Source: Capitulum mitella (Eukaryota > Arthropoda > Thecostraca > Pollicipedomorpha > Pollicipedidae). Taken from it: a DNA stretch of 64,000 nucleotides. The stretch is from contig CP099849.1 of the NCBI GenBank assembly GCA_030062745.1, positions 17,778,144-17,842,143 on the forward strand, in the 5' to 3' direction. Both the position numbers and the translations under genes were made by a program. Numbering within the stretch: the stretch's first letter is position 1; each line of letters opens with the position of its first letter. This document shows positions 19,201 to 54,300 of this stretch, piece after piece. Below the pieces are notes generated by a model, which was given only the letters and a program-made list of their open reading frames with translations, searched no databases and was not told the DNA's origin.

Positions 19201-20930
19201 TGGCAGATACCGTAAGCTTTGACGAATCGTAAGCGAAATGGAAATGACGAGATGATTAAAACGGACCCAAAGCGATTAATCTGTTCCCTATGTTAATGCG
19301 ATTAATCTAGGGATTAGTTATAACACAAACTGGTTTACTCTTCCTTTTCATTCGTGTTGAAAACACTCACTTGTCTGGCAACGACTTTTTAATAAGTCAT
19401 CCCAGAGGGGCCTACCAAAACTAAGCAAGGCACGCTGACAGCAAGAGAACCTCCCCCTTCCCGGATTATCTTCGGACGTTTCAAGCTATGCAGATGACAC
19501 CAGAACTGTTTGCTTGTTTGTTTGTTGTAGATTAGGACGCACAACCTCTTGAGCCCAAGCGTCCGTGTCTTCAGTCTTGTCTCGTCAAACGTCAGTCAGT
19601 CAGTCGTCTACAGACTGTTTATTTCGGTGCAAGGCTTGGCCGGGGATCAGCCGACCGACTACCCGCAGAGCTGCCTAGCAGAGGCAGCGCCGCGGGCATC
19701 CCAGCTGCGACAGAGCGCGGATGATGCTGGAGGGGTCGGCTCCGCGCGAGTGCACCGTACCAACCGCGTCAACGCCCGCTCACGTTATGAAAAGGACGTA
19801 AACCATCGTTTGAGCTTTGTTGCAGCTTTCGTTTCTCGTGCATGAATGCATAAGCCGTGCTTAAAGATTTGAATGAATCCGGGAATTATTATCAGTTCGG
19901 CAAGTGGGGAAGACGCCCTCATGTCGTGAGCTCGCTCTACAGCTGGCGAAGGCACATCTGAATGACTGCTTCATCTGATCTCAGATGAAAGATTGACCTG
20001 TCCGAGTAATTCCGAGTATATCCGATGCATGCTGAATGAGGCACTGAAGAAGCCCTTCCAGGCAGTGCACGACCTGCTGATTATGCCTGAAAGTGGCCGA
20101 ATAACTGGACAAAAGTCTCGACACCACATTTCTACCCGTCACAGCTTTTCCAAAGGCGCCGCAGCCAAAACCGGGGCCGAATGTATTGGCGTTACACTGG
20201 AGGCGCACCCTTACAGCACGCGCCACCGGCCGTAAGGCACTGGCCAACAGGGCCGGGAAGCGGAAACTTCCACGCGGAGGCAGGTACACGGTCCGCGTGA
20301 CAATCGACGCGCCTGTGGCGAGTCCATCCTTTAAGTAAAAGCCACGAGTTGTCCGCAGCGGCACAACAAACACAGCTCGAATGAGTCGCCGAGTTAAACA
20401 CCGCCACAACGGTCAATGAAAATAAATACGAAAATGACTAGCACGTTACATTATCAGCATTAAATTGAGCGACCCATAACATTATTGGCTTTTTCTGCTC
20501 GAGGAAGATGCCACTAAACTTCGCAAAACGAGCACTCAAACACGAATCGTGCCTCCACTTGACATCCGGTCCATCCCAACAGAACAGCCCCACAGCCTTG
20601 CCTCTGGCCATCCCAATTCGGCACCTGCCAGACACAGATGACGCAAAACAGCCGTGCGCTCCCATGACACCACCCCTCTGAGGCAGTGTTGCCGCGGTCG
20701 GCCCACCACCAGCGCTGGTGGCAGCAGGAAACGGGAGGCCGAGGCGGGGGACGGCGACAGGGTCGGTCCGGAGGTCACCGCGCGGCGCAGACGCCGCGTC
20801 CGGCGGCCAGCTGAGCTCCTCAGCTACGGGAAGACGCGCCAGCCGCCGTCCCAACAGAGCCGGGCGCCTACTCACGCCCGGGTCAGGCTTGCGAAGCTGC
20901 TCAGACATAGCTGGGAAGAGTCATAAACGC
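19201..20930. other. Region downstream of the DOCK gene, no recognised gene
   Basis: Holds open frames of 98-156 codons at 19549-19845 (+), 19981-20409 (-) and 20438-20908 (-) without recognisable domains. The DOCK 3' untranslated region should begin just below 21006, but no clear AATAAA signal was seen on the - strand. About 20660-20900 is GC-rich. Confidence 0.35.
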
Positions 20931-21020
20931 AGCTGGGACAGCAACGAACGCTGAGAACATCCACAAACGGAGCTGCGGCAGCCTCACACGGAGCTGGGGA
21001 CCGCCTCAGACGGAGCTGGA
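20930..21020 (-). repeat. Stop-codon-anchored degenerate tandem repeat
   Basis: On the - strand the end of the DOCK reading frame, AGCTCCGTCTGA, is followed by AGCTCCGTGTGA, AGCTCCGTTTG and more distant AGCTGCGTTTATGA and AGCTATGTCTGA, each preceded by a C-rich stretch ending in CAG or CCAG. The terminal Ser-Ser-Val-stop segment is thus repeated in the 3' untranslated region. Confidence 0.6.
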
Positions 21021-21353
21021 GCCGGTGACATTGCTCAGCAGCGTGTAGACGCTGAGGTGCTGCGAGTGCCGCGCCGGGTCCACGTCCACCGGGAAGCTCT
21101 CGCCCATGATGAGGCCGAGGGCGGCCACCAGGTCGCGGAAGCCGGCCAGCAGAGAGCCGTGGTAGTCGGCCTGGTCGTCGGCGCGCAGCCGGCCGTTGAG
21201 CAGCAGCGCGCGCTGGCAGGCGGCGACGAACTCGCGGAACGCCTGCTTCAGCCGGTACACCTTGTCGCCCGGGTAGGCCGCCTGCACGCTCTCCTCCAGG
21301 AAGGCGGACGCGTACGCCAGCGGGCCGGCGTTCACCTGGACGCTGACGCTGCC
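21006..21353 (-). CDS. Ziz: DOCK exon 37 (terminal, catalytic loop and C-terminus)
   Basis: Starts GSVSVQVNAGPLAYASAFLE, the loop that in DOCK9 forms the alpha-10 insert with the nucleotide-sensor valine, so the GEF centre looks intact. Then YPGDKVYRLKQAFREFVAAC and a variable tail ending GSSSV before TGA. Vertebrate DOCK9 ends similarly in SSSVV; a PDZ-type ligand is possible. Acceptor gacag, phase 0. Confidence 0.97.
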   Translation of the reverse strand, partial: GSVSVQVNAGPLAYASAFLEESVQAAYPGDKVYRLKQAFREFVAACQRALLLNGRLRADDQADYHGSLLAGFRDLVAALGLIMGESFPVDVDPARHSQHLSVYTLLSNVTGSSSV

Positions 21354-24300
21354 CTGTCGGCGCGAGCGGCACGGTGCCATCTCAGAGGCGCCTGGCACAG
21401 GCGGTCTCCCAGCCCCCAGGACGGAACACGTCCACGTACAACACTTTCGAAATCTGTGATCACGGCACGTGCTCACGGCGAAGAAACCATGATGACATGC
21501 GTCCGGAACTTTCGCTCCACACTTTGCCATCCACCAGTTTCGGGCTAGGACACTTCGTAGAAAGGACCACAGCAGTCATTATCAAATGTCATCATCCACA
21601 AAACGTACGCGATGCGACGAAATAACGCATGCGGAGAACAAAATGACCCATTCTGGTACGTGTTCGTTTTAAAACGAAAGGGCTAAAGCTTCATTTGCGA
21701 ACCTCTTCCACATCCTTGGCGTTACCAAAGTTGGAAACAAGTCCCTTTTCGTCAAAGTTGCCTTTTCGGAGTAAACCAGAGTTACATTTTTTGATTATCT
21801 CTATATTTCGACACCTTTTTCGGATTCCTCGCCGGTGGCATGTAGCATACAACCAGCATAAAAATCATCGATAAAACACACCAAAACAAAATATTTCCAC
21901 GTGCAACGACGAAATCAAAATCTTCATTACAATACGAATCACAATCGAAATAGAAAATTTTCGTTGTGGAGACCTGATTTCTTCGTTTTACGTGTCAACT
22001 TCTTATACCGTCTTTTATCGATGGCCGTCTCATGCTACATTTCACTGACGAAGAAACCGCAAAAGGTATCAAAATATATGAATAATCGAAAAAATGCAAC
22101 GCCTGCACGCTCCGAAAAGACGAATTTAATGATCACATTACCCTGGGTTATTAACATAACTATGACATTAACAAACAACTTTCTACAATCGGGGTAATGA
22201 TTAACGTAATTAAGTACAGTAACCAGGCTCTACGAAATATTTTCCACAATCGACTGAATAAGCGTGATTTGATCAACACAATGAACTTAGCGTTATCCGA
22301 AAGATAACTTGTCGAGAAATCTGTGCAATGATTTTACTTGACGACAGGGACGCTATCATTGAAAGTCCTAAAGGTTCTGGGGTTTTCATGGACGAGAACG
22401 CGAAACTAGAAATGCGACGACGTAATCCAACACACCAGCTCTGAAATGAACGTTGATGAATAGGTCTGCAAAGCCCTTTACCATTAGAGATCATAAGGAA
22501 AATCGGATAATGAGGCGTAGTCACACACAGGACGGCAAAAGTAGTTTTTGATGTGAACGACCACAATGATTAAGTTGATCGGTGCATCAGCTGATTCATT
22601 AATTCCAAAATGACGGTGCAATCCGTCCAGCATTTAAATCACAAACTGTGTAACACGAGCTCCTGGACCTTTTAATTTGGTCAAACACGTGCAGCTCTTC
22701 ACGGACGAAAGCATCCAGACTGCCAAACCTAAGATTCTCAGAGTCTTCAGTCGCATGGTAATAGTCTTTTTACGGGAAATCTCTGGCTGCCTACGCCTGT
22801 GACGTCTATGGCGGCCTCTCAGCATCTGATGCCTGTGATGTGCATCGGCGGCTTCGATGTGTTTGCGCAAAATACTCATATAAACACTAAACATCTTGCA
22901 TCGGGCTTCATGTTTTTAATCGTTATTGTTAGTCGTATTTGACGGCAAATTATCGTAATTATTGTTTTTTCTTCGCTTCCTTCGAAACTGACTCAAACAT
23001 GAATCGTGAACAAAAACAAGCAAATGACACTTTGAAACCAGTTGTCTACATATAGCGTCGAAAACTATCAGAGCATTACAATGAGCCCACATCCTGAGTG
23101 CACTGGTCAAACAAAGGAGGAATGAATCGATAAAAGACAACTCTGCACTTTTTTCGTAAAGTGCTGTTTTTTCTTGTATCACGAGATCGACCCGTGATTC
23201 ATGCTACTTGCAATTTCTGACATGAGGCTGAACTTGTCCATACCTTACGAAAATTGTTTGTTAAGTTCATAAGGTTCGAACAGCTTAACGCACGTCCCCA
23301 TACGAACAGCTATCAAGAACGTGGCGAATTTAGAGCACGGTTCTATGGCTCTTAAAACGTCAGAGACGGCATCCAAGGCGAAGGCGTCACACAAGTGTGG
23401 TGGCCTATCAGCGCGCTTGTCGCTGGGGTCCTCCGAGCCGCTGACGTCACACGAACCTGCAGCCGCAGCTGGAGCTTCTTCACGTCGGTCGGCTCCCGTT
23501 CCACGACCTCGATCAGGTCACGTGACCTCTGCGTCATCTCGCCAATGGCCACCTCGATCGGCGACAGCTCATACTCCTGCGGAGCACAACGATCGGAGAG
23601 TTAGTACTCCTGCGGTACAACATGGTCCGTCAGCTCACACTTCTGTGTACAGCAGCAGCCGGGGAGTTCGAATTCCTGCGGTACAACACGGTCCGTCAGC
23701 TCATACTCCTGCGGAAAACAACGACCATAGAGTTAATACTCCTGCAGCACAACACGGTCCGTCGGCGTACAGTCCTACGGTACACAACCGCCAATGAACT
23801 GGTACTCTTGGGGTACACGGCGGTCGGTCCGACACCCAGAGACGAGGCAGGCTGTGTGCTTCATAGAGGCGACAGACACAGCCCGATCCAACCTGCCCGC
23901 TGCCGCCGCGCTGCGCCAGTCTACTGGACAAAACAGGACGGCGCCTCCCCGCCAGCGCGTTCACCCACACACCGCCTTTCTACTGCATCCGGCACTACAG
24001 CTGAGCTCCTGTCAGCGAGGCCATTTTGACGCCGTACACTACCGATTATATGTCCCTTTGCCCGCTCTGGACGCATCATTTTCTCGAGTTCCAAACGAAC
24101 GTGAATACAAAGTCAAGAGTAAGCCACCAGGCCCCTGGATGCCTCCGACATTCACGCAGCAGCCCGTCGGCCGGCAGTTACCGTGCCCTGACCGCGGGGA
24201 AGCGCCCACCTGGCGTCGGATCACCGGTATCCGCGTGCGCACGTAGGGGAAGCAGTAGTCGGTGGTGAGCACGGTGCGGCGGCGCCACTGCTGCTCCACG

Positions 24301-27300
24301 GTGCCGCGTGGGCCTCCCTGCCGCGTGAACGGCGTCTCGTACATGAACTGAAACGGCACGGAGGTCGGAGGTCAGCAGGCAAGCTGGCACAGGTCAGAGG
24401 TCACAAATCACGGACCTGGGATCCACGTGAGAAGCCGCAGGATGTCTATCAAAGGTGAGGACCAGATTCGAGGTCAAAATTCACAGGTCTACATTACAGA
24501 TCAGTATCTACATGTCAGGTCTATCTTAAAGGTTCATTGCCACAGGCCAAGATTCTGTTCTTTCTTTTCTTGGTCAGGAGTGTCACGACATGATATCTTC
24601 CTCTCGTATACAGCTCCAGGTAAAGACACCAACGGATAGGTAAAAGTCCACAGACGGAGATGCACGTTTAATCTTTCTGGTTTGTTTAATTTATACGCGG
24701 CAACGTTGAGTGACAGACACGGCGATTTTCGCGCCATTGCACCGCGGGCACCGGTACCGAAGGCGGGATGGAATTAGGGGAAACTAATGTTAGCGTCCCA
24801 TTATTTCGGTAACATAAGCTTGGTCAGGTGGTGTTTGTCGAAGCTGGCGGTTCTTGTTATGGTTTTTCGTGCTTAGTTTTTGAATCAATTCAGTTGTCAT
24901 CCATCTACAAAACTGGTCGAGCTTCACTCGCAAAATCTGCTTGTTCCCAAAATATCCAATTTTTTAGACTTTTTCCGACTTATCGATATCATTCGTAACT
25001 GTGACAGTCAGTTCTGTCATTTCCTATCCGTTCCAAGTCATTCATCGCCGATTTTGACGGAAGTGTATTTTGACTCATAACAGCTACTGGTGGCATGACC
25101 TCAGGTCAATGGTTGGAGATCACTGGTACTTTGTCCAATGCCAGCCTGCCAGCCACTGGATGTCTACATCACGTCGCACTCAACTCGTTGCGAAAAATCG
25201 GTCAATTGCCGAAAACACAGGTCTTGAAAATCGGCTTGACTTGAGGTCAATGACCAGGAAATTTACGAAAAATCTAGGGCAGCACATTTTCTGCATCTAC
25301 TGAGATCTCTAATCCCGTAAATTTTATTGTGATATCGTGTTTTCCGAAAAGTTACAGGGCGCTAAACTTTTCTGGACATCGGTCAACTAGCCTGACCTAA
25401 GTCAGACGAATGACTAGGCCTGAGGTTAAAACTTTGATACAAGATGTAAAATGATTAAGCAAAAGGTAACCAAAATTTCATGGCGCTGCGTTTATTCGCT
25501 CTCTCGCAATCTTTGAAAAACCTCATGGGGTAGGAGGGATGCGGTTGATTGCCGCCCCCCCCCCCCAATCATGGCCGGGTTACGTCACTGCATTAATTAC
25601 ATTGCTGTATTTGCACATCCCGCTCACCTGTTTGATGCTGCGCTGTTGCGTTGCGGCACTGCTCACCTGTTTGATGTTGTTGTTGCGCTCGAACTCGGTG
25701 GGCCGGGCCTCCAGGTCGGCTTCGTCCCAGTGCGGCGTCAGGTGGGTCACCTGGACGTAGGCGAGCCGCGGGTCCAGGTCGGCCATCACCACCTGCCGGC
25801 CGGTCAGCGCCGCGTCAGCTCAGCCCGCCACACCCCGTCAGCGGCCGGCGGCGCGTCAGTCAGCCGCGTCACGCCGCACACCGCCAACGGCGGGTGGCTC
25901 TGCTGGACCGCAGAGAACGGGCTCCGGTCATCAAAACGACGTACACCGTCAGCGAATCACGCCCAGAGCTCGCGCCCCGCCGCGGCCGCGCAGGCCGCAG
26001 GCGGCCGAGGACGGGACCGAGGGGGCACGCACCGGCGCCGAGTCCATGATCATGCGGACGTTCTCCTTGCCGAACTTGGCGCAGTGCAGCTGGTGCAGCT
26101 TGTCGCTGACCTCCGACAGCGAGGTCACCTTGGGCTCCTTGTACACGTACTCGCGGTCGTGGTCCTTGTCGAAGTAGTTCTGGGAACGGCACAGAGGAGA
26201 AAGGCGGTCAGTCCAGCCGACATCTCAGACAGCGCAGCCACGTGCCGGCCCTCTTCTGGGCGGTACGCACAGGAAGTCTAAAGGATATAGGATGGACGGA
26301 AAACTGTCACTGGGCGTCAGCGGTCCCCACACACAAAAAAAATCTGCATCTCTGTACGTAGGCTGACAAGCACCCTCGTTTGAACACTAACTCGTTCTGT
26401 ATATCCGCCAGGCACCACGAACTTCAGCAGCGCGCAGCTATAGCGATCCACCATACAAGAGAGCGACGGAAATATGACAGCTCGACAACAGCACACTGGT
26501 GGGGCGGGTCGCACGACGCCAGATGGCCTGTACTGACCTGACCCAGGCAGACGACCCGGAAGTAGGTGCCCAGCAGACGGCGGCCCGACGCGTTCAGTTG
26601 GACGATGCGGCTGTAGCAGCGGTGGAGGTGATGGTACACGTCCGACAGCTCCACGTAGCTGCGGCAGAACCGCACGTGAGCAGGTGACAGGGGCGTGAGC
26701 CAGTGCATGGCACAATGAATCGCCTTTCCTCCGTAGGCCATACAGCCGGAACGGCGGACATGGTCAGAGACAGCCGAGAATGGTGCTGCGACGGGTTCGG
26801 CGCTGCTCTCACGGACACCCTTCACCATGACATGCACGCAGAACGAACATAACCGCCCAGTCATGTAGCCTCCAGCCCATGCACTCACGTACTCTACTTT
26901 TTGCCTGATCATTTCATTTTTTCTCCTGATCCAAAAGACCAGAAACACAAACAAGCGAAATATGTGTCGGCAGATGCGACATTTGCCCTGATTTCGGCGG
27001 AGAGCCACCCTGCCGTCGGCCCGACGCCCAGCGCGGACGGACCTGCGTCGCCGCCGGTAGATGGGGATCAGGATGTCGTAGATGTTCGCCATCAGCTCAT
27101 GTCGCTCACACATCTCCATGGCCTCGGCGCAAACCTTCAGCTGAGCCACCAGCGAGTCCTCCGTGTAGCAGAGATCACCTATGCCTGAGGAGAGGGGGAA
27201 GGCAGAGGTGTAAGCCACCAGTCTGCCCCAGTGTAGCAGAGGTCGCCTGTGCTTGAGGATGGGAAGTAATCACAGAAGAGCAGCCATAAGCCAGCCAGTA

Positions 27301-30300
27301 GCCAGAAGTCCTTCCGGTGGAAGGACTCGACCTTTGCCTTTGCCTCAAGCGAAGGGAGAGGGGTAGAAGTCAGACGAGATGCTGTAAACGGGTACGGCGA
27401 ACTCGGTGTACAACAGCACACTCGCAGTGAAGTCTACAGACATGAATGACGCAATGTTTCGTGTACAGCTTACGTCAAATCAAAAGCTGGTCTAAGCAAA
27501 CCAAGATTAGCACTGGTTCCACACAATTAAAACCGCAAGACTGAAATTAAATGCACAACACCAAAAAGGCGTTGTCACAGATGACAAAAACTAGGATGTC
27601 CAAAAATCGCGGGAAACTTCGGCATCCTTCATGCTTCTCGACTGAATTTCTTCGGAAAAACATTCCTCGTTCCGTCTACCCGACGCATTTTAAAGCAGGT
27701 CAGTCAGACCCAGCATTTCTGCCACGATGCCACACGCACCCAGATCAAACTTGAGGTTGCTCTCGTCGCGGACGACGTTGGGGGAGACGGAGTGGAAGGC
27801 CTTGCAGCCGGCATCGTGCTCTCCCCGCTGCAGCAGGTACTCGGCCATCAGGGCCGCGATGTGCACCTGACACATGGCCGCCTGTGGGGAGACAGGGCAA
27901 CAGTGAGGCCCGACCCGCGCGACGGGACGATCAAGTCTGAGACACAACGGGCGCGACGGGACGGTCCAGTCTGAGACACAACAGGCGCGGTGAGGCGGTC
28001 CAGTCTGAGACACAACAGACGCGGTGAGGCGGTCCAGTCTGAGACACAACAGACGCGGTGAGGCGGTCCAGTCTGAGACACAACGGGACCTCCGACACGA
28101 CCGACAGGGCGGCGGCCCTACCTCCGACAGGTGGCCGTCGCGGAAGTGGCACTTGGCCATGCTGCGCAGCCACGTCTCGCGCAGCTCGGGCGTGCTGGCG
28201 TAGCTGTTGGCCAGGCTGTGCTGCAGCTCCACCAGCACGGCCGGGTCGTTCTCGTGCTCCTTCAGCTGCGCCGTGGCCATCAGCACCGTGCGCACTCGCT
28301 TGGTCAGGTCCTTCACGTCCGACACAAAGCCTGTCGGCGACCGTGGGGCGTGACCGACTCGTCTGGCGGCTACGACGGCCGATACGCAAAAAGGTTCTTC
28401 TGTCACGCCACTGGAGACAAACATTGGTTGTCCTCACAAACATTGGTTACTGGTCACCAGGTATCAGTGCGGTAATGTTATGTCGACAACCACGCACATG
28501 GTAAAGCTGACGAAAGCTTTGGGTAAAAGCATTCCGAATTCTAACAAGCTAAGAATCCGATGAACTATCCGTCAATGCCGACGTTGCGATCACCAATCAG
28601 GCCTAGTACCCGTATTTTAGTCTCACATGTCAAATGACTTCAGCCCGTACGTGTCAAGTGCCAAAGACGTCACCACACGACAGCCAAGTGGCCGGAGAGC
28701 GCGCTGTTTAATAATGACGGGCCCTCCCTCTTTCCTACATCCGCCGGCGGGTACCGACAGCCGGCGCTTCAACACTGACGCAGCCGTGCCTGCCTCGCGC
28801 CACTCACTGGTCCGAGTCATGGCCTTGTCGCTGTTGGCGTAGCTGTTGATCAGCGCCAGGCTCTCGTAGAAGTGCGACGAGTCGAGCACCACCGACTCTC
28901 CCAGCAGCTGCGATACCTTGATGATCACCTGAAAGACCACACGGACCTCACAGAAGGCCTGGGACCCATAACTGGTGACGTCACAGGCTCATTATGTGAA
29001 GTTCGCCGGAAAGCGACACGCACGGAGCACCTGAAGATAAAACCAGGCTGCCACGCGGTTTCGACAAAAAACGACCGACAACACAGTTCGACGAATCTGA
29101 AAAGTTACGGACGTCCTGACCAGCGATCAGTTTTCAACACGGTGCACGGTCTAACAAGCAGGATAACGATCGCGACAAAGCCAGGCGAATTCTGCTCATG
29201 GCCTGTTATTGACAGCTCCGGAGTTTTGCCCACGCACGGTCTGTCGGTACGCACCTGCAGATGGACGCGCAGCATGGTCTTGCGGTTGGTGAACTCGAAG
29301 TTGCCGCGCATGAGCAGGTACAGCACGGCGCACGCCTCGTGCCGCGTGCTGGCCAGCGGGCTGTTGCAGCAGCGCAGGAGGTCGTAGCAGAGCCGGCCGC
29401 ACAGTTCGGCCGCGCCTGCCGGCCGGACCGAGCGGTCAGCCACCGCAGGGGCCACACCGAGGAGCTGCTGGAGAGCGGGCGGGACCGCAGGGTTCACGCG
29501 GACGAGGGGAGCGCAGTGGTCGGCCAGACAAAGGACCGCCAGCCCGCAGGCCAGGACAGCCACGGAAGCGGTCACGCGCCGGAAGAGGGACAGCTGGGAA
29601 ATGGGCAACGGACAACGGTGTGATGAGACGGTGAGGCCGTGGTCTGGGGTGAGACCGACGTGCAGGCGGAAATAGTTCATTACGGTTATCACTCAGGCCA
29701 ATTTGGTTGCGCAGAAACTACCCTTCATTGACCTGGATTTCATCAATAATGAGCTAAACCAGATAAATCGAGTGGGCAAATCAACAGGCGCACAAGATGC
29801 CGATATCAACACAGTAATCCCCGCTTCCCTCCACTCCCGGCGTGGGCCGGCTCGACCCACCGTGGTAAAGCGCGTCGCCGTACCGCTGCACAAACATGCG
29901 CAGCGCGGCGAACACGTGCCGCAGCACGGCCTCGGCCTGGCCCGGGTGCAGCAGGCCAAGGAAGACGTTCGAGAGCAGCGCCATCTGGGCGTTCTGGCCG
30001 CCGCGCGCCGCCAGCCGCTCCGAGAAGTGGGACGAGTAGAGGCAGGCCAGGTCGAGCGCCACCAGCGACGCCTCGGCCGACAGGTGCGACAGCGCCGGCC
30101 CGCCGCCTCCGCCGCCGCTGCCCGCTGCCGCCACCGCCGCAGGCCGTCCCGTTCCCGACTGAGGGACCGACTCGGCGTCAACAGGAGGCGGGTCTCCCGG
30201 GCGACGAGGTCCCAACCGGGGCCTCAAACGCAGAACTCGGAACGGCTCGATGGCGCGACCGAGAACGGCGCGAATGCGGCTCCGTGGAAAACGGCGACGG

Positions 30301-33300
30301 GTGACACACGCGGATGCAACATGACGCCAACGCCATCTTCCCGTAAAGGTCGCGCAATTCACGGTCCGACACCACCGAGCAGTCACCGGGAGGCAACACG
30401 CATCCCGTCTTTGGAGAGGTCCTGCGACAGACAGAACAGTTGTCAAAAGGGGCCGGCGGCACGAGAAACGCGGCGAGGTCGCTGACCTCTTCCGTGCGCC
30501 TCCGAGAAGCTGGCGTTGTTGAGCGCGCCGGCGGCGGCCGCTGACGGCTCCATCCGAGCCGGCAGGGTGAACGCCTTCTTGACCTCGGTGACGCGAGGGT
30601 GGGGACGGGCGGCACCGCCCGAGTACCGGAACTGGTTCAGACACAGCCTGCAGCACAAATGTGCATCACACACCACGGCAGAGCAGCAGGACACTCAGAC
30701 GTGGCTGACTCTGAAAACAACGCCCAGTGGACGCAACTCGCCCTATATAATCCATACAACGGCTGTGACCAGACCACAGTCAATTTGGTCCATTTGCGGG
30801 ATCGTCTTAATAACGGAATGAATTCAAGTTTTAAACAACCAGGTTCACTCGGTTCAGAAAGGCAGCCGACATCTACAAAGATAGATGTCGACTTTTTTGG
30901 CCAGCCGTGCCGTCTAGCCAAACGGCACGACGATTTGGCCAGGCGGCCAAATGGTCGTGCCATTGTCTTGTCGGCGCATAAACCTTCTTTTAACGCCATC
31001 TGTTTGGCGACTGGGCGCGTCAGTGTTAACATGCTTGCTGTGTATCCTACCCAACCGATTCAATTTAGGACTGCATCAACTTCACAACGAACAGGAGAGC
31101 GACAAAACACAGAAACACAAAAAAACAGTCATGCACGGGGGCCACAAAGGAAAGGTCATGGTCTAACAAAACTCTCGACTGCCCTCAGTCTACAACGCAT
31201 ATGCGCCATCTGAATGCTACAGTTCATGAAGACTACACAGAGCCAAGACGAGGCTGCAGGACGACTGCGCGACATTCCTCACAATGAGCAACACGAACGC
31301 CATTGGTCAGCATTTTCTTTTTACAGTTCTTCAAATCAGATCGGCCCATCCCTGCAGCGCTGTATTCGTCACAATGAAACCCCTCTGATGAGAATGCTCT
31401 GTCCAATGTTGCCAACGCCGTGGCCTGGTGGAAAACGACGCCCACGGAAAACATGGTGGAAAACAGCCAACGGAGTCCGACGTGTGGCAAGCACTGGGTT
31501 TGATTACCACAACGGACACTCGAATTAGCATTGGACTGAAAACGGCACACGTCGTGACCGGCTTGTCAAGCAATTTCGCCGCGGTCACGCAACAACATAA
31601 AAACACTCAGTAATGTCTGGTTGCAAGGCAACTGGATAGAGAGCCAGGATTCGAGAAACAAACTCGTTAGCGCGAATTTCGATCCCCCAATGTGCCCATT
31701 TCAACCGCTTGGATTGACTTACATGGTTGAATGGTTACATGGTTAAGCTTACACAAAAACCGCGCGAATCGCCGCCGCCTTCGGCCACTGACAACTCACT
31801 GGACCAGCGTGAAGAAGTTCATGACGTCCTCCTCGGCCGCGTGCCGCCACCACGTGATGAGCAGCTCGTCCGGCACGTGGCGCACCACGTGCAGGAAGCA
31901 GACCAGCAGGTCGCGCGCCTCGGCCGGCAGCAGCTTGTCGTAGCGGTACAGCGCGCCCGGGTCGTGCACAGTGCTCTGGGTCCTGCCGCCGCAACGGGCG
32001 CCCGTCAACATCCCGCAGAGAGCGGACGGTGCCGGCCACCTCCTGGCCAGCGGCGTTCACCGCCGGCTTGAAGCGCCGACAGCCCGGCGCACGTGGAACG
32101 GCAGTGTTCATGCGTGTCACGGGAGAGTGAGGACGCATTGGCCACGAAACGGCCTACGTCGCGAGTGGTCTGTTTCCTGCCACCGTGGGCATAAGGTCTA
32201 CGGCGTGCGAATCTCTCGCTGCGTGGAGCAAACGGTACACTGAGTACCTACAATGATCATGCACTGCCGTTGCCACTCCGGCTAGCTGCCGCTGAGGACC
32301 GCCAATCTGCGCTGCCAGCCAGTATCCGCTCCGAGGTCCAAGTCCAGCGTCCCATAGTAGAGGTCGGGGTTCAAAGTCCGACAGAAAGCGCTGGACTGCA
32401 CTGCCCTCTGGACATCCTACTGGCGGCGTCACTGCATTTCCTGACGTGGGCGGACAGCCTGGCTGCCCACTACCTTTTGGGTCTACCTGCACTACCACTA
32501 CCTGTTGCGGGTGGTGGGTCGTCTGGCTGTCGGTTGGTCACCTGTTGTAAGCGGTGGACCGTCTGGCTATGGGTGTATCATCTGTTGTGGGTTTACCACC
32601 TGATTGAGGGTATATTATCTGTTGAGACTAGGCCGTCTGGCTATCGGTTTATCACTTGTGGGTCGTCTGGCTGTCGGCTGGTCACCTGTTGTGGGTGGTG
32701 GACCGTCTGGCTGTGGGTGTGTCATCTGTTGAGGGTTTACCACCTGACTGTGGGTATATCGTCTGCGGCGACTAGACCGTCTGGCTGTCGGTGTATCACC
32801 TGTTGTGCGTGGAGCGCTTGCTGCCCGGCTGGCTGTCGTTGTCGGCCGACTCCCTGTCGCGGTGGCCGGCCAGCTCGCCGTTCTCCAGGTGGACCGACTC
32901 GACGGTGGTCTCCGTCTGGGAGGAGGCCGTCGACGCCAGGCTGATGGTGGAGGCGGCGCTGCTCTCCGACGCCTGCTGACCTGAGGACGGACGTAGACGA
33001 GGACAGTCAGCGGTGGCGACCAGACAGGCCACCGCCAGCTCTTGCTACATCTCAGGACCGGCATTTCCGACAAAACACGACTGCATGACACATAAACTAC
33101 CTCGTCATAACGCTTCCTTCGAATTACAATCACTGCCTGAGCGTCGCTACGCTTAGAGCTAGCAAGGCGGACTTCGGTCCAAAAGCGCATAGCAGAGAGA
33201 AATATGGGAGAACGGATATGACAAGAACCACACGACCCAAATGCAAGGCCATGAAGAACGTACTCTGTCCGGCTATGTAGGCCAGGTAGGTTGATTCCCT

Positions 33301-42300: not shown

Positions 42301-45300
42301 AAATCACGTGTTTCGCTACAGACGATTTACCAGTTTTTTTTTCGGGGGAGGTGGGGGTTACCCAGCCTCCCCTGCTTTCCAACAATGGGCCCGTTATGTC
42401 GATTACGACGTCATCCTTGTGTATGTGTCAGTTTTTGAGGGCAAAGACTTTACCACTATTTTGCGTGATGTACTCTGCCCAACTGCCATGCCAAGTACGT
42501 GACCATGACATTGTATCTGCATTCCTCACCTCAATTAATCTGAGCCGAGTTAAAGTAGCAAGGATTTAGACTTTCTTTGTCACTCAGGATGATTTTCGCT
42601 ATCAGATAACTTTGATTTCGAATGCTCAGTCCAAGCCAATCACACGATATGCTAGCCGTAAGATCTGACGGTGTGACATGTCATATGATCTAACCTTGAT
42701 GATAGCAGCAAAAAACCCCATCCGATATTTCTCTGCTTCCTTTACAGTTTCAGCATACATTAACGTTACTTCCCCAGGTTGTTGATCTGAACTTTCAAAA
42801 CCTAAAGCCAAGAACACAGCCTTTTCATTATGACAAAAGATTTCTGAGCCTTTTCAGAATGTCTGGTACAAAGGAAACATTTCTGAAAAGCTCCGCTTTG
42901 CGTCCATTTCCATAACGGTTTGTAAGCCGTGATGTGAATGCTTGAGAGTGAATGAAAGGATCCCCAAAAAGGGAGCCACTTAAAAGTACGTCCCTTTTTC
43001 TCCAGATTTGATGAATGCTCGGTCGATGTTACTTTCATCTCTCTACCTCCATTAGTCCACGGAGATCTTGGGAGTTCTCGAAACCCGAGGGAACGGCAAT
43101 GGGTGCGCGGTGACACCTCATCCTATCGGGGGGGGGGGGTGGGCGATTCGACTCTGTACTCCCATTCTCTGCAGCTCTGAGACGGGAACGAGCAGCCACA
43201 CGAGGCTCTGGGCAGCCGAGTTACATTTGGTTCCGCACGTTTTGACACATACCCCAGTGTTCAATTACGCCAGCTCATAGATGTATCACGCAGTCATTTT
43301 CAGAGACGTATGGCCGTGATTTCGCAGTATTCTGTACAAACTGTGCGCAGTCAATCAAACACGAGCATTACAAGTTAAACAAGGAGGTTGCATCCACATC
43401 TTGCATCCAAGCTGGATGTGTGTTTTGAAGGTCTCATCATCTCTGGTGATCTTTCAACGGGCATGTGAGGTTAATGACTTGATTTGACATTTTGGAGAAT
43501 TCTGAACATTGCAAACAAGATGGAGACAACGTAAACGGTACAGACTGTTTGTTTGGTCTTGAAGGTTACAAGAACATCAGGTAAGGTCATTTCACATTAT
43601 TTCGAAACATAAATGCGCGCCATTTACGATTCTGTAATGATTTGCCAACTACTCAAAAGTTGATTCAAATCCTGACCTACAAAGGCCATGTCACCTGACC
43701 TGGGCTTATCATGGATTTCGAAAACTAAGCACCGGTATACCACTTACACGATACTAAAGCTTCAGAGTACTGGACGACTTTCGAACATCAACAGTGATGA
43801 AGTGTAGTCAGTGGTGTAGTCCGTGATGTGGTGCTGTACATTTCCCCACGAAGGGAAAACTGACCACTAAGGCAATGCCTAGCTTGACCTGGAGTACAGG
43901 ATCACCAGTGACAGCTACAAAAATATACACATTTAACGTTTATAACAGCACAAAAAATGAGCCATCATGCGACGTTTACCCGAACACTCTACTTTTCTTA
44001 GTTTTCGAGTGACTGGGGGCGGGGCTGCTCAAGTCGAAGGCCGTGTTAGTAAAAAGTTCCGCAGGGCGAAGGTTACTAAATACCGTGGGTGTTTTCAGTG
44101 TCCAGTACCAGTTTCACAAGCATCTGCAAATGTATATACATCACAGCCTGGACAAGGTCATGCGAAGGTCGATGACGAAGGGTAACGGTTCCCGATTTCC
44201 GGAGCAGGGCGGCCAGGACCAAGAGACAAAACCCAAGCCTCAGCGGAACAGCCCATACCCCACTACAACAAGCCACAAACAAGAGGCCGTAGCATCACAG
44301 ACAAACACACACACACACAGACTGACCGAACCTTTAGTATTTTAGGCAGATGGTGCACCACCTAGAACACAAGAAGGCGCTTCAGTTCTGTGATTCAGCT
44401 GCCTTGATTTACGTCCGCAGCGGCAAGCTCGCATCCAACCACGCCACGGAGATGCTGGCGGCACCGCGGAGGCCGCCGCCGCCGCACGGTACAACGTTAC
44501 GCGAGCCGCGTCAGTCACCAACAGTCCTCCAGGAACCAAATGATGCGCGCAGCCGACAGTGCACCTCACCTTGACCTGCTTGGTGGTCTCGTTGTCGGAC
44601 GAGTACACTGTCGGCAGGCGCGACTCGCGCAGCCGGTGCGCGTGCAGGAAGAAGTTGTGCAGGTGCTGGTCGGTGGTGTATATGGTGGAGACCAGGCGGA
44701 ACGTGACCTTGAACAGCGGCTTCTGGCCGTCCACCCAGCGGATGTCCGGACCAGCGTACTGGCGACACAGGCGGGCACGTCCGGTCACCGGACGCCCACA
44801 AGATAACAGACCGCGTGCAACAGGACGCCGACGGGTTTCCCACGTGTCACGGCGCCGGCCACCAGTGCCCGGGCGAGCCCGTGACGCCCGCGCGTCCCAC
44901 GTGACGCTCCAACAGGACGACTGGCCGGGTGCGCCGGTGGTGGTGACGCGATTGCCGTGCCTTAGGGAAGCCGTGTTCTGTGTCCCGTGCCACCGCTCCA
45001 CGTGCATCCATCTCACGTACAACAAATGGGACGAAGACAAAGACAAGTGGACGCGATCCGGGCGCGTGGACGACTTTTTCCTGACAGCCGCACACTGGTG
45101 TCCACTGAACTGCACGATTCCTCTTCGTTTACACATCAGTGTCCGCTAAACAACAGTCGGTGTACAAATAACGAGCGTTCCGAAACACATTATAGCACGG
45201 CTATAGCACAAATCTCCGGCGGAGCAAACAAACTATAGACAGCGATAACAAGGACAACAATGACGGACGCAACACGCAAGGCAACGTCGTGACCGACAAC

Positions 45301-48300
45301 CAAACATCCGGAAGTATTTCAAACCGGGCACTGTTGGGCCTGAAATCAATGGATCCCGTGACACCAGACTGTCGTTGCCTTCAACGCAATCGGAATATGC
45401 CAATAATGGTCATTTAAATTCGACGTCCGCAAAGAATTTCATGTACTTGCACGAACAAATGAGGATATCTTCTGTACTTCATTCACCGCGTTTATCACGC
45501 ACGCGACATAATGAGCACCAAGCGTTCCAATGCGAATGGTCCACTAACGAAGGCTAACTCAAAATCCGGCGAAGACCAGAGCTCAACTAAACTGTGGATT
45601 ACAGCCTATCGCGCCTTCTTCCGGTACTCCAGTGTCCAAGATTCGTGCACTTGCGAGTCCAACTTCACGTACTTTGATACTGTCTGATATATAAAACGAC
45701 TGCGGAACACATGTAGTATAGTAGTCCAATGTAGTCCAATAGTAGTTCAAACACATGTAGTAGTCCAAACGTCGTCTACATGCCGCTGCGTGAGAATCGG
45801 ACCAGGCCGCAGTGGGACGACGTTCGTTCGAGGTGCTTTGAAGGCTGTTTCAGTCAGACCGGCGTCAGACAGTAGGGGGAGGGGGGGGGGGCTCCCATTC
45901 CCCCCAGTCCAGAGGCTCATGAACAGAGACGAAGTGAAGACATGGCGGCCAGAGGAGCGCCGAGCGTCCACACACCGGACACGGTGACGCATATCAGACG
46001 GCGCCAGCTGACCGCCAACAGGCCGTCAGAGGACAGTCAAACAGCGTCCCACACACCGGACACGGACGCCCGCCCACCGTGGGACATGGCACAAACAAGA
46101 AGCCCCGCCCACCGTGGGGCATGGACACAAGCAAGAAGCCAAGGCCCACGGACGACGGACAGTACTTGCGCAGGTGGATCTTGCTCCTCAGCAGCCGGCT
46201 TGACAATCTGTCCGGCACCAAGGCGTTTCCGCACCTTAAAAACACAACCGCAAAACAGCCAGTTCCGAGGAGCACGCAATCACAGGGAAGCTGGCGTCCG
46301 GTGTGGTCCCGATAACCATGCAGTAACACACCAGACGGTTGGCTATTTTTCGGCGTTTTACGCAAACAAGCGCATGCCAAATGATGCATCACTGAGTTAA
46401 GGCCGAACCGTGCTACCTTCAACAACTACAAGGGCCATGCCGGTCATGCATTCAGATGCTCAAGATGAAAAACTGGCCACATACCGCCTCGCTACTACGT
46501 CATGATGCGAAGAGCGAGAGAAGTCACACAATGACATTTGCCTTCACCACATTCAACTGGACTACGACCCACACTTAACCGTCGCCCGTATAGTGGGGAT
46601 GGTTGATGGACCCCCCCCCCTCTGAAGTTTTCCGAGAAAATTTCCTAACGGTTTGCTTCAGCCATCTGAAACCTAGTGTGCCTAGTGCCCTCTGGGGCAT
46701 CCCATGGCAAAACAATTTTTCTGTGTTGCCATGGTAACGAACTATGACGTCATAATGGGGACCATGTCAGCCGTTTTCGCGTGCCAACGCGGCCGGTTTA
46801 CAACAGTCTCGATTTTGTCTCACTGTAAGATAGTTGGAGATGAAAAAAAAACGGATACCAGTCGCGAAACCTCGTCAAGCGCAACACGCTGCTTTTTTCG
46901 GGACGCTCTATGACGCAGAGTGTGGAAATGGCCGGAAAGGCCGTACCTCTTCCCCCCATACCTCCGCGTTATGCTGAAGTCTGCACGTTCGCGTTATGCA
47001 GAAGCACCTATACGGGCGAGGGTTAAGCTGTCCCGTCCCGGCAGCAGAGGCGGCTGCGACTCCGTGCACCCGCGCACAAGCCAAGTACGACGAGTACGAC
47101 TTGCGTACCGGCGGGGCGTCAGCAGTCAGACCAGGCGGTACAGCACAGCGCAGTCTGGTCCGCCTGGCGCGCCGCTGCGGGTATCGGGCCCCGCCGCCGG
47201 GACAGCCGGTGCCGGCTGCTCGGCGTCCAGCTGCCAAGCGGCCGGCACCGGCTGGATTCGAAACCGCCACCGGCCGGGATGGGAGGACGCCATCCGGCCA
47301 GAGCGGCGACAGGCGGACACGTCAGTGCCCGCCCGTGCAGCCGGGACGGCCCGGGACGGCCAGGACTCGGGTCATCAGTCCAGCAGCCGGCCGCCGGCGG
47401 GTTAGTGCACAATCTGCTCTACCCGGATGTCAGGCGGACGGGGCGTGCGCGCCCGCTGTCCTGGTGTGGTGCAGACAGTACCTGACTTACCCCTTTGCCC
47501 AGGCCCAGCGGCTCGACCGCTAGATAGCCCGAGGGCAGGTGCGAGGCCACCGCCACCGTTTGCGTGTCCAGGTTCAGCCTGCGGCAGGGCGATCACACAA
47601 GGTCAGGGACATCAATCTGCACAAGATGCCATCCTTCCCTCGCCTGCCCTTGTTCAACGGAGGTCTCCAGCTGTACATAAACTCATCCTCCCCTCACCTG
47701 TCCTTGTTCAGCAGAAGCACCTAGCTGTACATAAAGTCATCCTTACTCTACCCTTGTTCAACAGAGGTCTCCAGCTGTACATAAACTCATGATTCCTTCA
47801 CCTGCCATTGCTCAACAGAGGTATCCAGCTGTGCATAAACTCATAACTCCTCCACCTGCCCTTGTCCAACAGAGGTATCCAGCTGTACACGAACTCATCC
47901 TTCCCTCAACTGCCCTTGTTTAGCAGCGGAACGGAGCTGTACATACACCCATCATTTCCTCACCTGCCCTTGTTGAGCAGTGGTATCCAGCTGTAACCGA
48001 CCACGGCGTCCGGCGCCTCCTGCCCCCGCTTGCCCTGCTTCGGCTGGCAGCTGACGTGGTAGAAGGTAAAGAGCAGATGGTGGCGCTCGTCGATGGCCAG
48101 CGGCAGGGCCAGCTTCACCTCGCTGTCCCAGGTGGGGCTCGTCTCGTGGTGCAGCACCGGCGTCAGCTGGCTGGTGCAGAAGCTGGCCCCCTGGCCCGGC
48201 CGGGCGTAGAAACACTGCCGAAAATACCCGACACTCTTAAGGTTGGGGAGTAATCGAACAGTCGGTCAACGACGACTAACCACCGTTTGCGAGAGCTTAT

Positions 48301-51300
48301 CTCACCGCACATGCAATGCAGGCAAGAAATCTTCCTTTGATAAAATAAGACTAATAATCCAACCGAAACCCAACGCCCATTCTACTGCTTCCCACGGACG
48401 ATCGCACCTCAGGAGAAACAGGTCCAGGAGAGCTGCCTATCAGCCTAGCCCGGTCACTCCCCAACGTCCCAGCGGACGTTCCTCTGACAACACGGACCTG
48501 CGGTAACCTCCAGTCGGCCTAGCCCGGCCACTGCCCCCGCCCCAGCGGCCGTACCTCGAGAGGTGCCGAGCTCTCGTCGTCGCCCTGGCGCAGTTCGACC
48601 CGGCAGGCGATGTTGCGCGCCTTGAACGCCTTCTGCGCGTCGTACTTGAGGCGCCGCGGGTAGACGTAGAGCAGGTTGGTGTAGCCCATGTGCGGGGCGG
48701 CCAGCTCGGGCGCCGGCGCCGGCAGGTCCTGCAGCCGTAGCGTCGGCGGCGACGACGGCGGCACCGGAAACGGACGCAGCGGCACCAGCGACGACGACAG
48801 ACAATCTGCCGACAGACAATCACATCACAATGACGCAACGGTGACAGTCTGCCCCGCACGGCACACCACACTGACGCAACGGCGACAGATCGTTTGTGAA
48901 GCACGACACGCCACAATGGCATAGCGGCGATAGGCAGTCCGCGGAACACGTCATACCACAATGAAACAATAGCTAACCAGTCCTTTTTTCGTCCGTTCAG
49001 CTCCGCAACCAAGATGAACCCAAAACTACCGCAAGAACAGGCCATTTCCTAGAGTACAATGTCCGACTCCTGACTCACTGTCCAGCTGTTGGCCGCCGTG
49101 GACCTGGAGGATCACCTTCAGGCAGCCGGGAATCACCGCCAGTCGACTCAGTTTGTCCGGCCTGGAACGTGACGTCACAGGGCCAGTCAGACCAGGTCTC
49201 GGGCGGTGCGAAGTCTCGAACCAGGACTGACGGCGACAAAGTCGGCTCGACCGCGGCCGGCCGGCGCCGGCTGCAGACGCTGCCTGCTCGGGCACGCGCG
49301 GACGTGCTCTGCCGGCTGGCCGGGCCAGCCTGCGCGGTATTGCCACATCAGGGCCGCGGGACAAACGCCGGCGCGTGACGGCGACATACACAGAGCTAGA
49401 GTACCCACAAGAGCGACCAGATCCAGATCCAAAGGTCCAGCTGCCGCTTCAAACCTGACCTAGTGTTCTGAGCCGCACGCCTCTTCTGAAGCGGCGACGA
49501 TCGTTACGGCATGCCCTGATAATGTCCGACAGCAGGGACTGTAAGACCGGGCCTCACTTGCGCCAGTCCTGGAGCAGCTTCAGGACATCCTCCTCGGTCA
49601 TCTTGTTGGGCTCGTGTCGGTAGAGGGCGATGAAGTCGCTCGGGTCCAGGTCCGCGGTCGAACGGAACACGGGACGCGCCGTCCACGCGAAAGGCATTCG
49701 GTAGCTGCCCAGCCTGAGGGACGCGGTCCTGGCTTTACCACAGTATCCTGTTGCAGAGCCTGAGTTACCCACGTCCAGGATAACAGCAAACCGTCCACAA
49801 AACAAACTATCCAAAAATCATTCCGGCCATCAACCACTCCCATTAAACCAGTCTCAAAACTGCCCAGGCCTTCAACAAGTCAGCCGACAGACCAGCTCCT
49901 ACACCACGCAGGCCATCAGCCAATCTCACGGCCAATGGCTTGTATCACCACCTAAACCGACGCAGCCTTCCGACAGGTGTCCGCCGCACCACAGCGGCAG
50001 CCGGCGGCGGAGCCAACTCAGCGGCGGCCGGCAGGCGGCGGCCGGTCCTCCCAGAGCCCCGTCCTCGGGCCCGTACCTGTCGCACGACTGCCGGACCTGA
50101 CAGTGCATCTTGGCCACGTGTTTGGGGTCGGCCGGCCGGCAGTAGTGGTCGCACGACACGCCCACCGAGCCCTGCAGCACCTTCTCGATGCGAACGAACA
50201 GGAAGATCTCGCTGTGCGGGCTGCTGGACGGTGAAGAGAGCCTGCGGCAGCACACTGGTCGGTTGGACGGGATGCGGTGGCAGCGCGATAGCTCACGCGA
50301 TCAACATTCGGGCAGCCTGAGTCACCACAGTCAACTGCTGCCGACACATGCAGATCCGACAAATTACATAAACGGCAACCGTCAATCAATTACAATGACT
50401 AAAAGTAACAGTTTATTTCCTGAAACGCTTTCATAATGAAAAATTGCCGCCCTTTAACGCAAAGACATGGAATGCGAGACAAACGAACGCTTTACAAAAA
50501 AACATGTCACGAAATACGCTGATGCCAGCATGTCTTGCGAATGACGCAAACATAAACTACAAACGAAACAAAACAATCGTTCGAGCCACGTCCGGTGGCA
50601 GCCATCAACAATGAGGCCGCGAGCCGGTCACCTGTCTGGGGTAGCTCAACCACTCCAGGGGCGCGTGAGTCAGGTCGGGAAGCAGCGTGGTGCCGCGCGT
50701 CTTGTTCTTGGAGATGGCCTTCGGCAACAGGTTGCGGATGTACGGGTCGTTGACGTCGAAGAAAAAGTCTTCCGAAATTTTTCGACCTTGCTTGGCGTCG
50801 TACAGACAGAGTGACGTGAAGTAAGGCTCAATCTATAAAATGAGACACAATACGTGAGCAACGGCTAACACATACGGAACTGCTCGCACAACATTAACAG
50901 ATAATGGTTCCATACAAAGCCTCCAGCGCAACTGCCATACAAGACAGACTGAGCAGCCAGGTACTACAAACGACTCCATCATCATGCAACACGATCACAG
51001 GGCTGTAACACAGCATAACAACCTATTTGAGCATGAGGACACCAGAGTGTCGACGCGGCCTGGCCTGATGCCTTGACTCGACCCGAAGGAATTTCCCTGT
51101 AAGGTTTTGACCTGACTCTGGAGAGGTTCCTGCTGATGAGAACTTGACGTGACTTGGGGAAGGTTTTCGGTGCTGGGGCTCTGACCTAACCTGATTTGGG
51201 CTCTCCGCGACGAGACCTTGACCTGACCTGGGAGAGGTTTTCGCCGGAGTCGTCCACAGGCATCTGTAGCCGGAACTGCAGACTCTCGCAGCGCACCAGC

Positions 51301-54300
51301 ACGGTGAGACCGTGCACCTCGGAGAACGGCTCGGTCCGCAGGTGGTCCTCGCTGGAGGCCGTCGACAGAGGCGTGGACTGCAGGCAGCGGGGACCAAGGC
51401 ACCACGTCAACCATAGCCACCCCAACGGCTCGTACGAACATAGACAAATGAGTACACACAAAAAAAAAAGAAACGTAATGGCACCTGCCTGCAAACAACA
51501 TACGATATCGCGAAGGACAGATTGTGGCCACTTACATTGCCTAACGAGCACACAAAACTACCCTCCGGGCACACATATTGCACATCGAAAAAACAAACAA
51601 CGTTTTAAGAACTACCACAGGTCTTTAACGAAATTAGCTCCCGAACGCACCGGCACGTTCGGAAACTAATTCCATTAAAGAAAGGGCGGCTGAACACGAT
51701 CGATTTTCACAGCACTGAACCCATTACGGTACACAATGCGACGTAGGAACCAACCAACCAACCAACCAAGGGTCCCAGCACCAAGCATCCTGGCCACCCC
51801 GGCTTCGTCAGTACGGCAGGACCGGCGTCCCTGCGGCCAGGCGCCCTCTGGCGGGCAGCCGCCGTCCGGTAGCCGCCCGGACCGGCGCACCTGAATGTCC
51901 GGGTACAGCTGGAACACCGGCAGCCGGCCGTCGGCGCGAGCCTGCCCGATCAGGTAGTCCGTCTCGTGGGCGTACCGGTTCAGCTGCGGGTTCAGGCTCT
52001 GATCCAGACCCCGCAGCGTGCTGAACCGGTCATCGCCCCCGGCCGGCGGCGGCGGCGGCGGCTGGCCTGATGGCGGCCATGTCATGGGTCACGCTCGGCG
52101 TCACGGTCACGACCCACAACGCTCCGTTCGGCATGTGTCCGTTCAGAGTTCAGCATTGGACAGAAAATCGTCGATGAACACTAACAAGTAAGCAAGCAGA
52201 TTACAGGTAATGTCCAACTTTCATCATAAGTTTTGAAATGAAACAGAGAGTGGATTCTGGGATTTAGTATCACTTTCAAAGATTTATTGTGTCTCAAAAT
52301 TATACGGTCATTAAGCTCAACGCAATTTACGACGACCTACATGATGCACGATTTGTAGCTGTTTCACGACAAACAGCTTATTATGAGACATTCATTAGAG
52401 TGCTGGCTTGTAAACAACAGCACAAAAGAACAGTACGAAGAAGTAACTGACCACACGTTCTATTTCACTCACTGCCCTTGGCTGACAGCAAACAATGCCA
52501 ACACTTTGCTGAATATCACAAAACGTGCCTTGAATTTGCCACAATTGGAACTATCAAGAGGTAGTATTGCATTACCATCGATGGTTTCATTTAAACGTAC
52601 CGCAAAACATGATGCAGAAGATGTCCTCTAATCCCGCCATCTACCCCCACAAAATTACAGAAGGGATAACATCATTACGTACGCTGTTACAGCCGCGCCC
52701 AGTCTCCGGACCTAGAATGCCAACGCGGGTGAGGTGTCCCCTCCTCCCAGTCACGTCAAGGCAGCAGATGGTAATGACGGTATGTGTGGGCTCCGCGCCA
52801 CCTGAATTAAGCAGTTCACAATGTTCACCTGACTCCCAGCGAGTGAAGATCTTGCCATCTGCCCCTAGACGGCCCAACCAGCTCACACCCCTCCCGTATC
52901 TTCCCAGAGGCCGGCAGCTCTCTGCCGGTGGCAGCAATCCTCTCTCACTGGCCCAGCTCACACCCCTCCCGTATCTTTCCAGAGGCCGGCAGCTCTCTGC
53001 CGGTATGGCAGCAATCCTCTCTCACCGGCCCAGCTCACACCCCTCCCGTATCTTTCCAGAGGCCGGCAGCTCTCTGCCGGTATGGCAGCAATCCTCTCTC
53101 ACTGGCCCAGCTCACACCCCTCCCGCATCTTCCCAGAGGCCGACAGCTCTCTGCCGGTATGGCAGCGGTCCTCTCTCTCACCGGCGCTGTCAGTAGTCGA
53201 CGTCTCTGATGTGACGCTCAGCCGGTCGTCCTTGGCCAGGGCGACGGCGCGACCAACCGTCTCCACCCAGTCGTGCAGCTCGGCTTCGGTCTCCGTGGTC
53301 AGCACGTAGCTCTTGCCGCCATCTGTCGACCGCAGCTCGAAGCTGTGCTTGCCACGCTTCTGGTGCTGTGGCGAGAGAGGGCGGTCTTACAGGACCGGCT
53401 CAGGCCGGGCAGAACGAACCCACAGACCTAGACGACCGGACACCAGCACAGTGAAAACAGCGTGGGAAGACGAATCAAAGGCCGCAAAGCCGCACGCAAG
53501 ACACAAAGGATGTTTGCACGGAGCTAGCGAGCTGACCAGTGCAAAGCTTGATGCACATCAGCCTGATCTAAACCGCCTGTGCATGATCAGGTGGCCGAAA
53601 ATACAAAGGCTCTGCCTTCAACCGGACCATCCCCAGTACCTACCTTTACCACTTCCGCCACGAGATCGAGCGGTATGGCACCTTTACTCTCAGACGACTT
53701 TGAGTCTTTGTAAAACTCCAACAAGTAGCTGCCGTCGGCGCCTTGCCTGCAATCATCGAACACCTCTCGTCATATCTGGGCTTTACGTTTCACCACGCTC
53801 AATTCTGAAACGCCACCTATGACATACTTCAATATCTAGTTTTCCACGACTAACCAAAACTGCCTGAACACACACAAGCGGTCTGCGCGTCTGTCTGCCT
53901 GTCATGTTTGGGCGATCCGGTTCCGTGTTTGGGAGTCACCGAAGGTCATCGCCACCCCCTCCCCATCCCCTTCTTCAACCTTTTCTCACACACCGCTTTC
54001 GCCTTCACGCGGCGACCTTTCACCCTGGCCAGCGCGGGGGCCGATATGCGCAGTTAGCCAGCCCCACGCCCGGAATCTCGCCTCGGATTCCGACGCCCTA
54101 CCCGTCTGATCATGCCGCGTCGCTGCCATCTGCCCGCCGCCATCGCCGACGCACTGAGATATGACTCCGCCTCCCACGCACGCAGCTCGTCCCCCGCCCA
54201 CGGTCGCGCCACGGGCCCACCTGAGCCGGGCGAAGCGGCGCTTGAACGACTTGGCGAACAGCTTGTCGCCGGCGCCGTCCGTGCCGCGCAGCAGGTAGCC

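Follow-up and report, generated by a model that had tools for sequence, protein, structure and literature searches.

The window analysed here, a 64,000-nucleotide stretch of the Capitulum mitella contig CP099849.1 (all positions below count from its first nucleotide), holds on its minus strand a DOCK9/10/11-type (zizimin) gene, which runs from 57646 to 21006 in about 37 coding exons, and several exon edges of this gene are spanned by tandem arrays whose units include both exonic bases and the adjoining splice site. These arrays are real, and the phenomenon has already been published, in lancelets, under the name of mirages; what is notable here is the presence of several of them in one gene. 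Pfam places DOCK_C-D_N and PH domains in the N-terminal part of the product, DOCK-C2 in the middle, and lobes A, B and C of DHR-2 at the end. With DOCK_C-D_N, PH, DOCK-C2 and DHR-2 domains all present, the gene belongs to the DOCK-D (zizimin) group, and as the best solved match of the DHR-2 part is DOCK9 (2wm9, 436.9 bits), followed by DOCK10, it can be called zizimin-type. When used as a query, the DOCK sequence found no relative in a collection of viral contigs (3 pattern matches, none confirmed) or in a collection of genome contigs (20 pattern matches, none confirmed), and an Rfam scan of the window at gathering scores returned no match.

Exons were delimited from a repeat-blind prediction relying on coding bias and splice signals only, which yielded 38 predicted exons on the minus strand. 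Hand correction of this prediction against solved DOCK relatives and by motif lookup led to a list of 37 exons, plus a possible micro-exon between exons 18 and 19, and the exon numbers quoted in an initial annotation made from the sequence agree with this corrected list. A 44-bp array of 22 copies (38674-39623) starts 24 bp upstream of the acceptor of the candidate micro-exon. The hand-corrected list loses frame at exon 10 (50077-50241), where alignment to DOCK relatives, judged by eye, suggests a one-nucleotide break, possibly an assembly slip or a polymorphism. Exons 22 and 23 are out of phase unless a further exon intervenes (e.g., the one predicted at 33264-33346), and the acceptor position of exon 26 is uncertain. 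Except for the edges of exons 22 and 23, the array-bearing edges are independent of both the exon 10 break and the 22-23 join. The frames used below for exons 6, 8, 14, 18, 22, 23, 34, and 36 are those of the repeat-blind prediction.

We located arrays with Tandem Repeats Finder (TRF), under default and relaxed scoring (periods under 10 being dropped from the relaxed run). TRF reports arrays at the donors of exons 6, 8, 14, 22, and 23, at the acceptors of exons 18 and 36, and at the stop codon, the exon 8 array being detected under relaxed scoring only. At the scores used, TRF did not report the two-copy duplication at the exon 34 donor, which was recovered by a 24-mer self-comparison (see below). 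Boundary-spanning units therefore occur at both kinds of splice sites, namely six donors and two acceptors, in addition to a short duplication of 15 bp at the exon 13 acceptor, which sits within a degenerate 45-bp TRF array (48750-48969). Exons 6 and 18 are marginal cases, with about 4-6 exonic bases in the array. At the other extreme, the exon 14 array fills most of its 385-bp intron, and the best copy of the exon 36 array is an exact repeat of the first 12 exonic bases (encoding EYEL). All nine arrays named in the initial annotation were recovered, including the repetition of the stop codon region into the 3' flank, and the view that they represent separate events stands, as their units differ (33 to 77 bp for the eight splice-site arrays). 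The annotation had not named the 15-bp duplication at the exon 13 acceptor, a weak array over the exon 34 acceptor, or six arrays (score of at least 100) that lie outside exons. Separately, two five-base arrays, (CAGAC)n and (CAGGT)n (41513-41601), begin about 29 bp from the exon 17 acceptor and do not span the edge.

Table 1. Positions in the window of the zizimin-type gene, its candidate micro-exon, and the tandem arrays at its exon edges.
Feature	Position	Strand	Basis
DOCK9/10/11-type (zizimin) gene, coding exons 1-37	21006..57646	-	prediction; Pfam; DOCK9 2wm9 436.9 bits
Candidate in-frame 27-bp micro-exon between exons 18 and 19	38623..38649	-	motif lookup, relaxed TRF; by eye
77-bp array, ~4 copies, exon 6 donor (edge 53182), 4 exonic bases	52878..53185	-	TRF
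Degenerate array, 37/74-bp register, exon 8 donor (edge 51228), 17 exonic bases	51072..51244	-	relaxed TRF, copy alignment
15-bp tandem duplication across exon 13 acceptor (edge 48805)	48791..48820	-	relaxed TRF, junction inspection
54-bp array, ~7 copies, exon 14 donor (edge 47964), 32 exonic bases encoding YSWIPLLNKG	47630..47995	-	TRF, copy alignment
56-bp array, 6.6 copies, exon 18 acceptor (edge 40874), 6 exonic bases	40869..41230	-	TRF, copy alignment
40-bp array, ~5 copies, exon 22 donor (edge 34124), 23 exonic bases	33951..34146	-	TRF, copy alignment
74/144-bp array, exon 23 donor (edge 32800), 24 exonic bases by TRF	32502..32823	-	TRF, copy alignment
GC-rich array, low identity (64%), over exon 34 acceptor; low confidence	25760..25903	-	relaxed TRF
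Two-copy 39-bp duplication, exon 34 donor (edge 25667)	25614..25682	-	24-mer self-comparison, copy alignment
33/66/132-bp array, exon 36 acceptor (edge 23576), 27 exonic bases by TRF	23550..23829	-	TRF, copy alignment
Array with units of 21-43 bp over the end of the coding sequence (final codons, stop codon) and the 3' flank, with 14 coding bases	20900..21019	-	TRF

A TRF run blind to junctions found 16 arrays in the gene at a score of at least 100, while shuffled 64-kb windows gave 0.7 rows at this score (20 shuffles). For ten of the 16 arrays, the overlap with an exon edge is 4 bp or more, and the other six touch no exon. The ten comprise seven of the splice-site arrays named in the initial annotation, the stop-codon array, and two arrays of low identity, one at the exon 13 acceptor and one at the exon 34 acceptor; the duplication at the exon 34 donor lies outside the tested set. 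Under uniform placement (no more than 60 exonic bases being permitted), 2.6 arrays would be expected to overlap an edge to this extent (P = 4e-5). Under placement matched for guanine-plus-cytosine (GC) content, the expectation is 4.6 (P = 0.005). When an overlap of at least 15 bp is required, seven of the 16 arrays qualify, as compared to 2.1 expected under uniform placement (P = 0.003) and 3.9 under GC-matched placement (P = 0.07). Placement was evaluated under twelve settings in total, with score cut-offs of 80, 100, 120, and 150 (the lowest of which was applied without two mainly exonic arrays). Replacing whole arrays by unit-length seeds lowers the expectation for the ten of 16 to 1.5 (uniform) or 2.0 (GC-matched), and removing four low-identity arrays leaves eight of 12, against 1.2 and 1.5 expected, respectively.

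This excess is visible only when arrays are counted as events. In the 24-mer self-comparison, a junction was counted as duplicated if a copy matching at least 18 of its 24 bases occurred within 400 bp, a criterion reached at 0.1% of positions in block-shuffled sequence, and, within the gene, at 10.6% of intron positions and 2.8% of exon positions. Seven of the 74 junctions are duplicated (donors of exons 8, 14, 22, 23, and 34, acceptors of exons 18 and 36), exon 6 failing because no more than about 4 bases of its array are exonic. A slower decay of arrays that span an edge was also considered as a source of the excess and set aside, given that the TRF identities of edge and non-edge arrays, as informally read off, overlap.

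Base composition accounts for some of this clustering. GC content is 0.66 in exons. In array-free intron sequence, it falls with distance from the exon, from 0.67 (up to 30 bp) to 0.64 (31-60 bp), 0.53 (101-200 bp), and 0.47 (more than 400 bp). As introns are GC-rich only near exons, part of the clustering of arrays is explained, which is reflected in the rise from 2.6 to 4.6 expected edge-overlapping arrays upon GC matching. Composition and the edge of coding constraint together explain part of the excess, and not clearly all of it.

The exon 14 array is informative as to the direction of copying. It repeats the last 32-33 bases of the exon, and its six intron copies yield a consensus that translates as YSWIPLLNKG, a stretch that is recognisably conserved in DOCK6 and DOCK8. 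This consensus differs from the exon by synonymous changes only, in two of the ten codons (one proline and one leucine). As the copies share a coding consensus with synonymous differences only, the intron copies descend from coding sequence. All six now have altered residues, in one case a stop, as expected for unconstrained copies.

Elsewhere in the window, an inverted repeat of about 1.9 kb (15574-17508) has outer arms that are 91% complementary and two opposed arrays of a 143-bp unit, this TRF unit carrying a motif like CAAAGGTCAAGGTCA; the repeat looks like a non-autonomous transposon. An open frame on the minus strand (4633-5379) encodes a C-type lectin domain (Pfam PF00059, E = 2e-5), and another one on the plus strand (61970-62488) resembles, by eye, the end of a reverse transcriptase of a long interspersed nuclear element (LINE), with no Pfam match. 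Finally, a (TAACC)n array of about 19 copies (7480-7573) reads TTAGG on the opposite strand, which would presumably fit an arthropod-type telomere repeat, as a weak hint.

Among known systems, the arrays of the DOCK gene are closest to mirages, the founding paper on which is said to have appeared in 2002 in Nucleic Acids Research (NAR). The name was given to tandem repeats spanning exon-intron boundaries in the lancelet Adh3 gene (PMC3087553). Lancelet globin genes exhibit mirages at 5' as well as 3' boundaries, and both the number of copies and the length of the unit vary, units ranging from 10 to 72 bp in Adh3 and from 150 to 160 bp in globins, and AG/GT being found in many copies, although not in all (PMC3087553). 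Further lancelet mirages have been described in PGBD5 and, as cited in the same article, in Adh and TnC (PMC3902484); all the mirages in these two articles are from lancelets. Mirages are further characterised by length instability between haplotypes and by leaving regular splicing undisturbed. The DOCK arrays share with lancelet mirages the boundary-spanning units, the occurrence at either splice site, the locus-specific unit length, and the presence of AG/GT in many but not all copies (here 22 of 33). They differ in number, as the articles cited here describe one or a few boundary-spanning arrays per gene, whereas the DOCK gene has eight, of which two are marginal, and a further one at the stop codon; and, beyond what is described for lancelets, the DOCK arrays come with a placement test, a composition test and evidence of direction. 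No case of several such arrays in one gene outside lancelets was found in the titles and abstract openings returned by searches of open-licence literature, and the available sections of PMC6823432 (Plasmodiophora) and PMC6292497 (lancelet genome) hold nothing bearing on the question. In human segmental-duplication genes, variable internal tandem repeats at exon-intron boundaries, with units of about 30 bp on average, can alter splicing (PMC2812944). Both these and the DOCK arrays are minisatellites at boundaries, but the human cases are transcript-supported and concern recently duplicated paralogues, while the DOCK copies are diverged and known from DNA alone.

We favour, with a probability of roughly 60%, the explanation that the arrays are mirage-type minisatellites, the placement of which mostly results from differential survival superimposed on a composition bias. 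Duplications would arise in GC-rich DNA, which in this gene comprises the exons and their flanks of about 60 bp. Those lying wholly within exons would be purged by selection, while a short tandem duplication that chanced to straddle an exon edge would be harmless and persist, and most such duplications would then expand by slippage or unequal exchange. The exon-adjacent copy would stay a working splice site (or stop codon), splicing presumably proceeding as normal, so that the remaining copies would become neutral intron (or 3' flank) sequence. The arrays would thus most likely be a by-product of DNA duplication, tolerated only where the protein is undamaged. In favour of this explanation are the coding origin and present divergence of the exon 14 copies, the GC gradient around exons, and the retention of splice dinucleotides in the copies at a level no higher than that of adjacent bases. 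The stop-codon array, located at a coding edge without a splice site, suggests from one case that the location rule extends beyond splice sites.

Several observations weigh against this explanation, some of them because they question whether there is any excess to explain. Repeats cover 9.5% of junctions (seven of 74) and 10.6% of intron interiors, leaving no junction surplus, and when the test point is moved from the donor into the intron, no peak is seen at the junction; arrays reach the exon edge and end there. At an overlap of at least 15 bp, GC-matched P values range from 0.03 to 0.105 depending on the score cut-off, the latter being the weakest of all settings. All P values are moreover post hoc, because the gene was picked for showing the pattern. 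Chance placement, combined with the choice of a striking gene, would account for these points; we nevertheless consider it rather unlikely, as the event-counted excess holds in most settings. Other observations point to more than survival. GC matching leaves an excess (ten of 16 arrays against 4.6 expected, or against 2.0 with seeds, a number of edge overlaps reached in 0 of 300,000 GC-matched draws with seeds), so that a factor beyond GC content may draw duplications to edges. Two further points against the explanation are that clear exon-to-intron direction comes from exon 14 only, and that all six copies in the exon 36 array keep AG. A factor beyond composition could be that splice-junction DNA is itself mutagenic and seeds duplications, for example through transcription-linked breaks or R-loops at donors. 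Such a cause would fit an excess over uniform and GC-matched placement alike, as well as the six donors against two acceptors among the arrays initially annotated. However, GC skew on the coding strand varies in sign among the eight junction arrays (-0.28 to +0.36), and none of the eight contains a G3 quadruplex motif; weaker two-G motifs occur in six of them, on the coding strand in two and on the other strand in four. The only array with coding-strand G3 motifs (35608-35902) lies away from any exon edge, one array sits on the stop codon, and six of the 16 overlap no exon. Mixed skew and the lack of G3 motifs leave an R-loop seed, as had been envisaged in the initial annotation, or a quadruplex seed without clear support, and we regard mutagenic junctions as unlikely, if far from negligible.

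The same annotation had also proposed selection for decoy or alternative splice sites, in favour of which many copies keep GT or AG, among them all six in the exon 36 array, and a copy at exon 34 offers an open in-frame donor (see below). Yet, retention overall is not above that of neighbouring bases: GT or AG is kept in 22 of 33 intron copies from seven arrays, while 17.6 would be expected from neighbouring base pairs (P = 0.19). The exon 6 array, in which an insertion or deletion broke the ungapped alignment, was excluded from this count; its three further copies all keep GT. In the predicted frames, an in-frame stop precedes 13 of the 16 GT-bearing donor copies (six arrays); use of two others, the nearest copies at exons 6 and 8, would cause a frameshift, and the remaining copy is open and keeps the frame. 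Both acceptor arrays have an in-frame stop, 8 or 27 codons upstream. As retention does not exceed that of neighbouring bases and only one of the 16 donor copies is open in frame, selection for decoy sites is not supported, and we hold it to be highly improbable as a general cause. The open copy is the one at exon 34, located 39 bases past the donor, which would add 13 codons without a stop and is the one candidate for a real alternative splice site. Least credible of all is the reading of the arrays as remnants of introns gained by tandem duplication, in which the intron itself would be built of repeat copies. Tandem duplication is a documented route of intron gain, with cases in the potato RNA-dependent RNA polymerase (RdRp) gene and in fission yeast, some genes of which contain multiple copies of a 24-bp AGGT-bearing segment (PMC4974935), and such a model has been proposed for lancelet globins (PMC3087553). 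The exon 14 array, which covers most of its intron, is in line with it, and duplicated units carry splice signals in both situations. In the intron-gain model, however, exonic duplicates give rise to a new intron, whereas the DOCK arrays extend one end of an intron, and the opposite splice site of each array-bearing intron has no nearby copy by the 24-mer criterion. As a precedent, put forward in the initial annotation, this model is related, but lancelet mirages are closer.

That a process linked to transcription or splicing repeatedly makes exon edges hot spots of tandem duplication across this genome, outside lancelets, and that boundary-spanning minisatellites are thereby a widespread source, independent of other routes, of new alternative splice sites and introns, is in our opinion rather unlikely. 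Eight or nine arrays in one gene are numerous enough to examine whether a splice-specific cause is required for their placement, and the duplication at exon 34 illustrates how an event of this type might provide an additional in-frame splicing option.

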